From: Acidimicrobiales bacterium
Lineage (GTDB): Bacteria > Actinomycetota > Acidimicrobiia > Acidimicrobiales > MedAcidi-G1
Assembly: GCA_028823445.1 (NCBI GenBank)
Contig: JAPKBH010000015.1
Span: 1-42,745, forward strand
Reading direction: 5' to 3'
Length of the DNA stretch: 42,745 nucleotides
Within the stretch, counting starts at the first letter, position 1. Each line of letters begins with the position of its first letter. The translations under genes were made by a program, and so were the position numbers. Below, piece after piece: positions 6,430 to 38,817 of this stretch. Under the pieces are notes generated by a model. The model was not told the origin of the DNA, made no database searches, and saw only the letters and a program-made list of their open reading frames with translations.

Positions 6430-6840
6430 TTAATAATTTCCCAGTGTGGTGGTTCGCACCATGTGGTTCCATCGACACCCCAAGCAAACTTCAATCAGGT
6501 AAGCGGTGAACTCGCCTTGCCGGTTTGCTAAACGCTTTAATTCTTTAGGTGTGCTAATGCATCGTCCATGCGCTGGTAACCGTGGGCCAAAAACGTAGGT
6601 GACGTGACGTACCTGATGTTCGGCGCAAATGGGGCAATCGACGCTGGTTGGGGTGCTGCAATGTTCGGCGTTGCGTAACAACATGGGTTGGGCATCGCAC
6701 ACCAGGTCACTGCCGATTAATCTTTTTTCAAAAGCATCAATCATGCGTTGCCGAGCCAAGCGGTAATCCACGTCGGCGGTTCGCCGCGCCGGAACCAAAC
6801 CCTCACGGTTAAACCCTCGAGTGGTGGTACGGCTCCCCAT
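6430..6840 (-). CDS. DUF5318-like actinobacterial protein with paired Cys motifs
   Basis: A 136-residue soluble protein. After a basic N terminus it has DYRLARQRMIDAF, a CPIC pair (about residue 70), the HVTYVFGPRLPAHGRCIS block, and EVCLGCRWNH near the end. The CxxC pairs suggest a zinc ribbon. The arrangement resembles actinobacterial DUF5318 proteins encoded near the rpsF cluster in mycobacteria; this is from memory of the family and was not checked by search. AGGG stands 7 bases before the ATG. No biochemical role is known to me. Confidence 0.7.
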   Translation of the reverse strand: MGSRTTTRGFNREGLVPARRTADVDYRLARQRMIDAFEKRLIGSDLVCDAQPMLLRNAEHCSTPTSVDCPICAEHQVRHVTYVFGPRLPAHGRCISTPKELKRLANRQGEFTAYLIEVCLGCRWNHMVRTTTLGNY

Positions 6841-36308: not shown

Positions 36309-37163
36309 TTAGTTATGGATGCTGACCGGTGTGCCGAGAGGCAAAAGGTCGTTTAATAAGAGGGCAATTTCGTTGGGGGTGCGGATACATCCGTGGGAGG
36401 CGGCGGTACCGATGGAGTCCTGCTGGTTGGTGCCGTGGATACCAATTTGGCCCGGTCCTCCGGCAAAAGAGGACAGGGTGTCGGAGTATGCAGAGAGTCC
36501 GAAAGCGACTGGGCCGTAAGCGCCGCTTGGGTTGCCGGTGAGGAGTTTGTCAGTAAGAAAGAAGTCTCCGTTTGGGGTGGGGTTTTCTTCACTACCGATC
36601 GCTACTGAGGTTTCGAACACGATGTCTGGGCCATCGTTGACGGTGAGGGTGCGGTCTGACTGGTCAATGGTGACGGTCAAAGTGACGGTACGAAGCTCTA
36701 TTTGGCTGGCGTGTACCCAGCCACTGGTTTCGTTGGGGCGAACTGGCAAATCAACGTTGTACCAGTCGCCGTCCACTGAGTTGACAAGAAACACGGTGGT
36801 GGAGCCGTAGTCGGTGGTGGCCTCAAAGGTCCAGGAGGGGTCGGTGTCGCTGGGGTCGGCGTAGGCCTCAACGGCCCCGGTTGCTCGAGCCACGTAGATG
36901 GGGTCGGGGACAAATGCGACTTCTTCGACCGGTGCTTCGGTAGGGGTGGGGGCGGGAGCTTCGCTCGTTGAGGGTGCCAATGCCTCGGTGGTAGCCGGTG
37001 CTTCGGTAGGGGCGGGGGCGGAAGCTTCGCTCGTTGAGGGTGCCAATGCTTCGGTAGGGGTGGGGGCCTCGGTGGTTGTTTCTTCGGTGGGGCTGGTGCC
37101 TCCACAAGCGGTAAACGCCAGGGTGACGGTTAGAAGAAGGGCGGTGGTGCGGAGGTTTTTCAT
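36309..37163 (-). CDS. L,D-transpeptidase (YkuD) lipoprotein with SH3-like domain
   Basis: A 284-residue protein. Lipoprotein signal MKNLRTTALLLTVTLAFTAC (Cys20), then an Ala/Pro/Thr/Glu repeat linker (about 25-78) coded by a 66-base direct repeat. An SH3-like domain (about 82-152, with SVDGDWYNVDLP and SGWVHASQ) follows. The YkuD domain (about 155-284) has IGIHGTN and the catalytic SHGCIRTPN Cys motif. It forms 3-3 peptidoglycan crosslinks or attaches proteins to the wall. AAGGA lies 6 bases before the ATG. A GAACCTGT element shared with the next two genes lies 69 bases upstream. Confidence 0.93.
   Translation of the reverse strand: MKNLRTTALLLTVTLAFTACGGTSPTEETTTEAPTPTEALAPSTSEASAPAPTEAPATTEALAPSTSEAPAPTPTEAPVEEVAFVPDPIYVARATGAVEAYADPSDTDPSWTFEATTDYGSTTVFLVNSVDGDWYNVDLPVRPNETSGWVHASQIELRTVTLTVTIDQSDRTLTVNDGPDIVFETSVAIGSEENPTPNGDFFLTDKLLTGNPSGAYGPVAFGLSAYSDTLSSFAGGPGQIGIHGTNQQDSIGTAASHGCIRTPNEIALLLNDLLPLGTPVSIHN
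36931..37060 (-). repeat. 66-base direct repeat in the transpeptidase linker
   Basis: Two near-identical copies (36931-36996 and from 36997 to about 37060) encode an Ala/Pro/Thr/Glu/Ser-rich unit of 22 residues containing TEALAPSTSEA. The second copy differs by a few bases and is incomplete. Such a repeat can change copy number by slippage and vary linker length. Confidence 0.85.
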
Positions 37164-37224
37164 GATTGGTCCTTTTGGTTGGTTGTTGTGTCCAAAGTGT
37201 TGAGTAGTTAGGGGCGGTGTTCTT

Positions 37225-37232
37225 ACAGGTTC
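37225..37232 (-). promoter_or_regulatory. Shared upstream element GAACCTGT, copy A (transpeptidase gene)
   Basis: The minus strand reads CGAACCTGTAAGAA. The same GAACCTGT-N-AGA core lies 69-79 bases before the starts of three neighbouring minus-strand secreted-protein genes. It may be a -35-like promoter element or regulator site. Confidence 0.5.
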
Positions 37233-37252
37233 GAAACGGATTTTTACGCGTT

Positions 37253-37280
37253 GATGCCGGCAGCAAGAGCTGCCGGCATC
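37253..37280 (-). terminator. Perfect 12-bp-stem hairpin after the first PLFTG protein gene
   Basis: GATGCCGGCAGC (37253-37264), loop AAGA, GCTGCCGGCATC (37269-37280): a fully paired stem 14 bases beyond the stop. The T tract is weak (AACGCGTAAAAATCC on the minus strand). The same stem with a different loop follows the paralogous gene at 38038-38065. Confidence 0.75.
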
Positions 37281-37294
37281 AAGGGTGAGAAGGT

Positions 37295-37933
37295 TTAGCC
37301 AGTGAAGAGCGGTGAACCGGGTAGGGCCTCGTCTACTTCTGATTCTTCGACTTCTTCGGTGGTGGTGTCCTCAGGCTTGTCTTCTGGGGTGTCCTCAGGG
37401 GTGTCCTCAGGCTTGTCTTCTGGGGTGTCTTCTGGAGTATTTCCGGGAGTAATGGGGTCAGGATCCGGACAATACTTGCGGATGAACCTGGTGAAGTCGG
37501 CACCTTCTCGCAAAGCGTTGTCAGCGTCGTAACTGTGCTCTGCTACATAAACCGAGATAAGTGCTCCGAAACTGCCAGCCGGAGCAGAAAAACCGTAAAT
37601 AGCGTGGTCTCCTGGAGCAAGAAGTTCAAAAATGGTGGGTGCTCCAACGGGCTGCCAAGCTTCAACAATACCGTCGAAACCAACATCAAAACTGGCGGCT
37701 ACCCACCGGTTTGTGGTGGTGTTGTTTTCGATGCTTACTACGGCACCTGTGGGTTCACCCTCGCAGTGGCCATCAAGAGCAGTGATGAAGTTTACGTCAA
37801 CTGAGCCGGTGACCACTGGAGCAGCGATAGGAATGTAGGGCTCGATGCTAATTGCTGAAACGGTTTGAGGGGTCATCATTAGCGACGAAGCTAAAACAAC
37901 CATGACAGTAATAAGGTGGGTAAGTTTTTTCAT
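37295..37933 (-). CDS. Secreted Ig-like-type protein with acidic PED-repeat tail ending PLFTG
   Basis: A 212-residue protein with a signal peptide (about 1-27, ending TVSA), one beta-rich domain (about 40-155) and an acidic tail (156-212) of PEDTPEDKPED repeats ending EESEVDEALPGSPLFTG. Two Cys frame the domain (DGHCEG and RKYCPD), suggesting a disulfide, and NRWVAASF lies inside. The neighbouring gene has the same plan, the RWVA motif and the same last residues, so they are paralogues. AAGGAA precedes the ATG at 7-8 bases. I do not recognise the family. No transmembrane helix or basic tail follows PLFTG, so it is not a standard sortase substrate. Confidence 0.8.
   Translation of the reverse strand: MKKLTHLITVMVVLASSLMMTPQTVSAISIEPYIPIAAPVVTGSVDVNFITALDGHCEGEPTGAVVSIENNTTTNRWVAASFDVGFDGIVEAWQPVGAPTIFELLAPGDHAIYGFSAPAGSFGALISVYVAEHSYDADNALREGADFTRFIRKYCPDPDPITPGNTPEDTPEDKPEDTPEDTPEDKPEDTTTEEVEESEVDEALPGSPLFTG
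37369..37441 (-). repeat. 12-base tandem repeat coding PED units
   Basis: Variants of a 12-base unit (of the type TCCTCAGGGGTG on the plus strand) are repeated six times and encode the PEDT/PEDK units of the acidic tail. Likely length-variable. Confidence 0.8.
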
Positions 37934-38004
37934 GTGGGTTTCCTTTTGTTAGTGCTTGGTGTTTCCAAGCTTCAAAAAGGGGATGACTTAGGGTGAAAAA
38001 TCTG

Positions 38005-38012
38005 ACAGGTTC
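38005..38012 (-). promoter_or_regulatory. Shared upstream element GAACCTGT, copy B (first PLFTG gene)
   Basis: The minus strand reads TTGAACCTGTCAGATT, 79 bases before the ATG at 37933. It shares the CCCTAA[C/G]T stretch at the same distance downstream with copy A. Confidence 0.5.
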
Positions 38013-38037
38013 AAAGAGACTTTCCATTAGACGCGTA

Positions 38038-38065
38038 GATGCCGGCAGCATTAGCTGCCGGCATC
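38038..38065 (-). terminator. Perfect 12-bp-stem hairpin after the second PLFTG protein gene
   Basis: GATGCCGGCAGC (38038-38049), loop ATTA, GCTGCCGGCATC (38054-38065): arms identical to the hairpin after the paralogue, 16 bases beyond the stop and followed on the minus strand by TACGCGTC. Either a duplicated terminator or a repeat element. Confidence 0.75.
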
Positions 38066-38081
38066 TCGATAAGGGAAGGGA

Positions 38082-38738
38082 TTAGCCGGTGAAGAGGGGG
38101 GACCCTTCGATGGCTTCGTCTACTTCGGACTCTTCAACTTCTTCAGTGGTCTCCACTGGCTCTTCAACTTCTTCAGTGGTCTCGACGGGTTCGTCTGGGC
38201 TGCAGTCAACGCTGACCGTTCCTTGCCAAAAGACTTCATCATCGGCGATCATTTCGTCGATTAGTGCTCCTGCATCAGGTAGGTCAACTTCGCGGAGGCT
38301 GAGGTAGAAGGTCACGGTTGCTTGGTAGCTTCCAGGGAGGGCATCTGGGGTAAAACTGAACCCGTCTCCTTCTTCAAATTTTCCAAAGCTTGGAGTTGAG
38401 CCGTCTGATGGTGCCCAACCAATGCCGTCGTTATCTTCCACACTTATAGCGACCCACCGATCGGCAGCAGTGAAGCCCTCACCGGTGTAGTTATTCATGA
38501 ACGAAACGGTGAAGGTTCCGTCGTCGGCGTCGCAGTGGGTTTCAAAGTCACTGGTGAGTTCAATATCAAAACTTCCGAGGTCTACATCAGGGAAGTCGGG
38601 TCCGGGGTCTCCGATGACAATTCCGTCGGGAACGAAACTGTCGGTGTCAATTGCTGGCCGGGCGTGTGCGGATCCCCCAGTTGAGAGGGAAAGGGCGGCC
38701 ACCAAAATGATGGCCAATATACGTAGTTGCTTTTTCAT
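38082..38738 (-). CDS. Second secreted Ig-like-type protein with acidic tail ending PLFTG
   Basis: A 218-residue protein with signal peptide MKKQLRILAIILVAALSLS up to SAHA, a beta-rich domain (about 45-180) framed by two Cys (ETHCDA and SVDCSP), with DRWVAISV inside. A Glu/Thr/Val acidic tail follows, with a doubled EPVETTEEVE unit, ending EESEVDEAIEGSPLFTG. The last 17 residues match the neighbour in all but two positions. I start it at ATG 38738 because AAGGAG is 5 bases upstream; the frame is open further to 38951 but without signal-like sequence. Not recognised as a known family. Confidence 0.8.
   Translation of the reverse strand: MKKQLRILAIILVAALSLSTGGSAHARPAIDTDSFVPDGIVIGDPGPDFPDVDLGSFDIELTSDFETHCDADDGTFTVSFMNNYTGEGFTAADRWVAISVEDNDGIGWAPSDGSTPSFGKFEEGDGFSFTPDALPGSYQATVTFYLSLREVDLPDAGALIDEMIADDEVFWQGTVSVDCSPDEPVETTEEVEEPVETTEEVEESEVDEAIEGSPLFTG
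38130..38189 (-). repeat. 30-base tandem duplication in the acidic tail
   Basis: Two adjacent 30-base copies (38130-38159, 38160-38189) differ at three bases near their ends and encode the repeated EPVETTEEVE unit. Confidence 0.85.
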
Positions 38739-38809
38739 AATTGCTCCTTGGGTTGGGCACCAGGGTTTGGTGCGGTTCGTAAAGGAGATGAAAAGCAGCG
38801 AGGTTTCTA

Positions 38810-38817
38810 ACAGGTTC
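38810..38817 (-). promoter_or_regulatory. Shared upstream element GAACCTGT, copy C (second PLFTG gene)
   Basis: The minus strand reads TTGAACCTGTTAGAAA, 79 bases before the ATG at 38738, the same distance as copy B. It lies only about 24 bases from the start of the divergent GH43-like gene. Confidence 0.5.

Follow-up and report, generated by a model that had tools for sequence, protein, structure and literature searches.

A probable small extracytoplasmic function (ECF) sigma regulon pairing an L,D-transpeptidase with secreted proteins of invariant GSPLFTG end

Three consecutive genes from an uncultured marine actinobacterial lineage, encoding an L,D-transpeptidase and two secreted paralogues that end in GSPLFTG (P1 and P2), appear to be part of a small autoregulated envelope-stress regulon governed by an ECF sigma factor, a reading to which a probability of roughly 0.7 is assigned. 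The genes lie in a 42,745-nucleotide stretch (the window; positions 1-42,745 of contig JAPKBH010000015.1) of the Acidimicrobiales bacterium assembly GCA_028823445.1. This 1.93-Mb genome is labelled G000 and was compared within a set of eight genomes of the same genus (G000 plus others, such as G002, G003, G004, G006, and G007). The features that carry this reading are (i) a bipartite promoter-like element with fixed spacing, (ii) its recurrence ahead of homologous and unrelated envelope and regulatory genes, and (iii) its presence ahead of the gene for a candidate membrane-tethered sigma factor, G000:C35.

A bipartite element shared across the genus

An earlier note on this DNA had described three neighboring minus-strand genes, each with a signal peptide and a common upstream element, and had proposed that they form a co-regulated envelope module. 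The arrangement is confirmed. The element, GAACCTGTNAGA, occurs at 37221-37232, 38001-38012, and 38806-38817, always on the minus strand, with its 5′ end 69, 79, and 79 nt ahead of the start codons. These three copies are the only ones in the whole G000 genome, and a reversed-pattern control yields none. GAACCTGTNAGA covers just the 5′ half of a more extended conserved pattern, TGTNAGA-N15-NNTC.

Further genes carrying the element were found in the genus with a covariance model built from the leaders. All 20 sites, distributed over six genomes, fit TGTNAGA-N15-NNTC (the first block once reads CGTCAGA) and lie 38-50 nt from the next ATG. The G, T, A, G, and A of the first block and the TC of the second are invariant in all 20, with little conservation between the blocks; the second block mostly reads CATC, and a less strict SARNN stands just 5′ of TGTNAGA. 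Judged from sequence, the bipartite motif and its fixed spacing have the layout of an ECF promoter, in which TGTNAGA would be the -35 part and NNTC, exactly 15 nt further on, the -10 part recognized by one ECF sigma factor.

In the relatives, the sites precede homologous tail-protein and L,D-transpeptidase genes, including the second L,D-transpeptidase gene of G004, as well as other envelope and regulatory genes, among them the ECF sigma gene, which supports the proposed co-regulation. The regulatory genes include one for a WhiB-type regulator, found with the pattern by the covariance-model search in G002, G004, G006, and G007. WhiB paralogues of the genus that are 68-70% identical to the site-bearing WhiB are without the same promoter and leader. 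G006:C29 alone has a 41-residue upstream open reading frame (MKKRTQRARASVVKVSRFITSSNAGLEHRNKAICDPNFRYF) between the leader and the WhiB gene (L048, about 6451-6576). Within G000, a 70-residue secreted protein (G000:C60; L052, 4988-5282) has the promoter GAACCCGTCAGA-N15-GGTC, and an 8-bp GGGGTCTC/GAGACCCC complement encloses its ribosome-binding site. Leader searches in 48 genomes of the family and 298 of the order returned no convincing leader outside the genus; an RNA-model match in another genus (G016, L057) was judged spurious, having no start codon downstream.

A candidate membrane-tethered sigma factor

Weak covariance-model matches led to an ECF sigma gene, whose orthologues in G000 and G003 were then shown to carry the pattern. 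In each of the four genomes that yielded this sigma gene, a site precedes it, and the sites come in two diverged forms. The same four genomes encode the GSPLFTG family, and the other four are less complete. In the G000:C35 protein, Pfam detects sigma region 2 (PF04542, E=5e-11) and does not report region 4, while TIGR02937 (sigma70-ECF) covers residues 18-174 with a score of 63.7, above its cut-off of 42.9. The closest solved relative is SigW (E=7e-9, aligned over 13-175). Further along the chain are an HX3CX2C zinc anti-sigma motif (HLTQCDDC, 213-220), which is also readable in the G003, G004, and G007 orthologues, a hydrophobic membrane helix near 314-332, and a Thr-rich extension. The C-terminal domain has no Pfam match and looks fibronectin type III (FN3)-like by eye. 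The fusion of a zinc motif and a membrane helix to the sigma domain is that of ECF48/52/53-like factors. Because the zinc motif, the membrane helix, and the extracellular extension reside in one chain, the sigma factor is probably held at the membrane.

Short upstream open reading frames lie between the leader and the sigma start (L092/L093 and L104/L105): MFLLYFPATWVASSLW / MFLLHLLATWVASSLW in G000 and G003, and MKKNLKIINRSHRFSDQSCGMI / MRQKHNMIMNRFDRFSDQSCGMI in G004 and G007, where they stop 4 nt short of the sigma start. Translational coupling is possible. A second fused sigma factor (L097, G000:C27; L098, G003:C16) lacks the promoter pattern in its fetched flanks.

In the proposed mechanism, one ECF sigma factor, probably G000:C35, would transcribe the cluster genes together with its own gene and would stay membrane-bound until a signal from the envelope arrives. 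Its release, most likely by proteolysis, would raise the L,D-transpeptidase, leading to 3-3 cross-linking or wall repair, and likewise the secreted beta-sandwich proteins with their long acidic linker and fixed GSPLFTG end. The sigma factor would also raise its own level and, in relatives, that of the WhiB-type regulator. The DNA itself shows the two-part motif with its constant spacing, the occurrence of this motif ahead of unrelated genes in several genomes (the sigma gene being one of them), the invariant tail, and the hairpin leaders; that G000:C35 reads the motif, and that envelope damage is the inducing signal, we infer.

Several observations weigh against the ECF regulon. A search of the eight genomes with SARNNTGTNAGA-N15-CRTC gave 17 matches, 16 of them ahead of the genes discussed here, but the search pattern had been derived from these very sites, and when reversed it matches 8 places in the same genomes. 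Given this control, site counts alone are weak, and the weight therefore rests on the position of the sites. Once the sites that went into the RNA models are set aside, four matches are the sigma-gene sites and one is chance-like; the sigma-gene sites, which played no part in building those models, precede the same gene and come in two diverged forms. Additionally, the -10 part of the L,D-transpeptidase promoter reads ACTC, and G002 and G006 (83% and 73% complete) have a WhiB site but no detected sigma orthologue. Finally, G000:C27, a paralogous sigma factor of the same fused architecture and 42% identical, could be an alternative reader of the motif.

Rival readings of the element and the hairpins

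Most leaders of the regulon contain a 4-8 bp hairpin between the promoter and the start codon, before the ribosome-binding site, that varies in sequence and keeps its pairing. This inner hairpin is treated as real and an outer stem, which could cover the ribosome-binding site, as possible. The whole leader was at first taken for an RNA element that sequesters the Shine-Dalgarno (SD) sequence, an idea that was demoted because the fixed TGTNAGA-N15-NNTC pattern shows that CATC is probably the -10 part. In its present form, which is compatible with ECF control and somewhat short of an even chance, an outer stem of CTCCTTT with AAAGGAG around the inner hairpin would act as a thermometer-like or protein-controlled switch, placing most of the regulon under translational control. 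Both partners change in 12 of the 14 pairs, and pairing is seen in 82.7% of cells versus 49-65% in slid controls, although the pairs were counted in an alignment fitted to the structure (14 rows, one of which, L057, is the spurious match). The anti-SD and SD arms of the same leader pair at -6.56 kcal/mol versus -5.35 kcal/mol for swapped arms (P about 5e-5), a difference that holds for swaps within lineages, and single-leader folds reach z values down to -5.1. ECF transcription normally starts 5-8 nt after the -10 part. If NNTC is that part, most of the CTCC arm would thus be untranscribed, and the outer stem may be outside the mRNA. Moreover, the arm 5-12 nt past the -10 part shows no excess pairing (P=0.24), the signal coming from the bases directly after NNTC, and the three leaders of the main L,D-transpeptidase have no outer stem. 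An Rfam 15 scan for a known leader family returned only tRNAs at the gathering score and nothing relevant up to E 10.

The element could instead be the binding site of a DNA-binding regulator, such as the site-bearing WhiB, at promoters read by the housekeeping sigma factor. The WhiB gene itself carries a site in four genomes, and some sites include TTGAAC, which resembles a -35 hexamer and is followed 17-18 nt later by a T/A-rich stretch. This alternative is nevertheless improbable: neither G000 nor G003 yielded the WhiB-a gene, though both have sites, a region scan found no sigma-70-type promoter on the strand of the cluster, and an ECF -10 part usually takes the form of NNTC at a fixed distance. 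The sites also share no conserved sigma-70 -10 hexamer, on which ground a sigma-70 promoter was rejected.

The hairpins past the P1 and P2 stop codons, described in the earlier note as identical with 12-bp stems, indeed have identical 12-bp cores, and no other perfect stem in the window reaches 10 bp with a loop of 3-8. A ATGCCGGCAG...CTGCCGGCAT-type hairpin follows the stop of each tail gene at 17-23 nt. As it runs into T-rich DNA in G004 and G007, these hairpins are probably terminators duplicated along with the gene and not part of the signal.

The three genes and the GSPLFTG family

The L,D-transpeptidase matches the YkuD domain (Pfam PF03734, E=3e-16, 60.7 bits against a cut-off of 23.4), contains the catalytic motif SHGCIR, which fits the YkuD consensus SHGCXR, and has B. 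subtilis YkuD as its closest solved relative. Its N-terminus reads as a putative lipoprotein signal, while those of P1 and P2 read as ordinary putative signal peptides, with predicted cleavage after AHA in one and VSA in the other. P1 and P2 are 32% identical across 231 columns (two-sequence E=2e-9) and share the end EESEVDEAxxGSPLFTG, and the earlier description of them as paralogues with a common tail holds. The coordinates of these and the other features are collected in Table 1.

Table 1. Coordinates of the genes, predicted promoters, leaders, and hairpins (window positions unless a locus or contig is named)
Feature	Location	Strand	Remarks
L,D-transpeptidase, YkuD type, putative lipoprotein	36309..37163	-	LAFTAC/G; PF03734 and closest solved relative
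P2, secreted GSPLFTG-family protein	37295..37933	-	signal peptide, two Cys, acidic P/E/T linker
P1, secreted GSPLFTG-family protein	38082..38738	-	
Predicted promoter of L,D-transpeptidase	37202..37232	-	GAACC-TGTAAGA-N15-ACTC; no SD-covering stem in leader
Predicted promoter of P2	37982..38012	-	GAACC-TGTCAGA-N15-CATC
Predicted promoter of P1	38787..38817	-	GAACC-TGTTAGA-N15-CATC
P2 leader	37934..37981	-	inner hairpin GCTTGG-AAACA-CCAAGC (37954-37970)
P2 possible outer stem over SD	37975-37980 with 37942-37947	-	CCTTTT with AAAAGG
P1 leader	38739..38786	-	inner hairpin GCACCA-AACCC-TGGTGC (38757-38773)
P1 possible outer stem over SD	38782-38787 with 38744-38749	-	CTCCTT with AAGGAG
Hairpin shortly past P2 stop	37253..37280	-	probable terminator
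Hairpin shortly past P1 stop	38038..38065	-	probable terminator
Codons of invariant GSPLFTG of P2	37298..37318	-	
Codons of invariant GSPLFTG of P1	38085..38105	-	
Candidate sigma gene, own genome	G000:C35, start 4129	-	
WhiB gene promoter and leader	L048 6370-6444		G006:C29
WhiB gene promoter and leader	L049 2861-2936		G002:C9
WhiB gene promoter and leader	L050 9091-9166		G007:C106
WhiB gene promoter and leader	L051 5482-5552		G004:C8

The tail family is encoded in four of the eight genomes, with eight proteins in total: two in G000, three in tandem in G003 (followed by an L,D-transpeptidase gene), one beside gyrA in G007, and two in G004, of which one is beside gyrA and the other between two L,D-transpeptidase genes. 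The earlier note had proposed a search for relatives with the same tail next to YkuD genes bearing the element. All eight proteins keep the tail, and a tail gene adjoins an L,D-transpeptidase gene in three genomes (G000, G003, and G004), whereas the lone gyrA-side copies in G004 and G007 depart from the expected adjacency, which is thus common and not obligatory. In the alignment of the eight proteins (a contig end truncates one of them), the members are 27-45% identical to P1, apart from the G003 orthologue at 89%, and G-S-P-L-F-T-G is invariant (8/8). The tail codons differ synonymously among members while the residues stay the same; therefore, selection acts on the protein. Every member contains two cysteines, never more or fewer, together with an acidic linker, and none has a second membrane helix. 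The linker of the third G003 protein (L013, 1446-2180) includes a long DDGG repeat, but ESEVDEAVVGSPLFTG is kept.

Pfam, NCBIfam, and PDB sequence searches with the tail family gave no match, and no paper using the tail motif in this sense was found in the literature; the tail proteins are an undescribed protein family. Other genera of the taxonomic family gave two weak matches to the linker only and none with the tail pattern, and the phage and viral records searched contain no tail proteins. As far as found, the family is confined to this genus. Fold comparison of a low-confidence model (mean predicted local distance difference test score, pLDDT, 59.5) points to a common immunoglobulin (Ig)/FN3-like beta-sandwich; transglutaminase domains and RbmA, a biofilm scaffold, give the best Z values (8-9), which are tied and not specific.

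Possible roles of the tail

The earlier suggestion that the tail is a recognition signal gains some support from its 8/8 invariance in the face of synonymous codon changes. The best guess, by inference, is that the tail docks the protein non-covalently to an envelope partner. The fuller proposal, that GSPLFTG is a new C-terminal docking or sorting signal on ECF-regulon products, free of sortase and membrane anchor and read by such a partner, is a doubtful one. As one possibility within it, a PDZ-type protease might sense free tails and feed back on sigma release, by analogy to E. coli DegS, which senses outer-membrane protein ends.

The other part of that suggestion, covalent attachment through the acidic tail by the neighboring L,D-transpeptidase, is not supported and is very unlikely. 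Adjacency in three genomes would fit it, and some proteins are attached to peptidoglycan by L,D-transpeptidases, although this is described for Gram-negative species; the known protein acceptors offer a lysine side-chain amine or an N-terminal amine (PMC12729407). The proposal fails here because such an acceptor amine is required and the frozen tail has none, containing neither Lys nor an N-terminal amine. Five of the eight proteins are without Lys in the last 40 residues, there is no conserved N-terminal motif past the signal peptide, and the conserved-end amine of L,D-transpeptidase-anchored proteins (Lpp, OMP25, BpbA type) is absent. A truncated or odd LPXTG sorting signal, suggested by the superficial resemblance of PLFTG to LPFTG, can be practically dismissed, since the order is PL and not LP, the protein ends at the G with no membrane helix after it, and no sortase (PF04203) was detected in the eight genomes while control genomes gave matches.

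Relation to known systems

The closest layout, compared by sequence motif, appears to be the ECF41 promoter, TGTCACA-n16-CGTC in B. licheniformis and R. sphaeroides, which is likewise bipartite with a TGTCA-type -35 and a CGTC-type -10 part and is read by a sigma factor with a fused regulatory part (PMC3426412). It is not equal to the element described here: the 20 sites do not fit the ECF41 promoter, having TGTNAGA in place of TGTCACA and a spacer of 15 rather than 16, and the candidate sigma factor carries, in place of the ECF41 C-terminal domain, a fused zinc anti-sigma motif with a membrane helix. In protein architecture, G000:C35 resembles ECF48, ECF52, and ECF53 of Actinobacteria (e.g., SCO4117), which combine sigma factor, zinc finger, membrane helix, and a long extracytoplasmic extension in one chain, and for which release by proteolysis is thought likely and autoregulation has been suggested (PMC8999054, PMC5826349). 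Pfam recognized in it no carbohydrate-binding domain of the kind found at the ECF52 C-terminus, and the published ECF52 motif is CSGYN-17-SRHA (PMC8999054, PMC5826349) versus TGTNAGA-N15-NNTC here.

Envelope-stress sigma factors of Actinobacteria are known to target L,D-transpeptidases, and the proposed regulon, with its L,D-transpeptidases and secreted proteins, has this in common with S. coelicolor sigma-E, whose promoters end in CGTC, CATC, GGTC, or CTC and whose regulon includes three L,D-transpeptidases (PMC6767563), and with C. glutamicum sigma-D, which controls the L,D-transpeptidase LppS (PMC6338062). By contrast, no GSPLFTG-family protein is known from either regulon. Neither sigma-E nor sigma-D is known to be a single chain with a fused anti-sigma and membrane part. 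The tail proteins share with LPXTG surface proteins secretion, a flexible acidic linker, and a short fixed C-terminal motif, but differ in lacking the LPXTG order, the membrane helix, the basic tail, and a detected sortase in the genus. ECF control of envelope genes is of a known kind, and what would be new is the regulon variant and the orphan C-terminal signal.

Implications

Should the mRNA include the outer stem, the regulon would be controlled in both transcription and translation, an uncommon arrangement among ECF regulons. The GSPLFTG family poses the question of why the last seven residues stay fixed in secreted proteins that otherwise change quickly and have neither a sortase nor an attachment amine. 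Under the ECF reading, three orphan genes would join a testable circuit made up of a sigma factor tethered to the membrane, the promoter code that it reads, and the genes that it controls.

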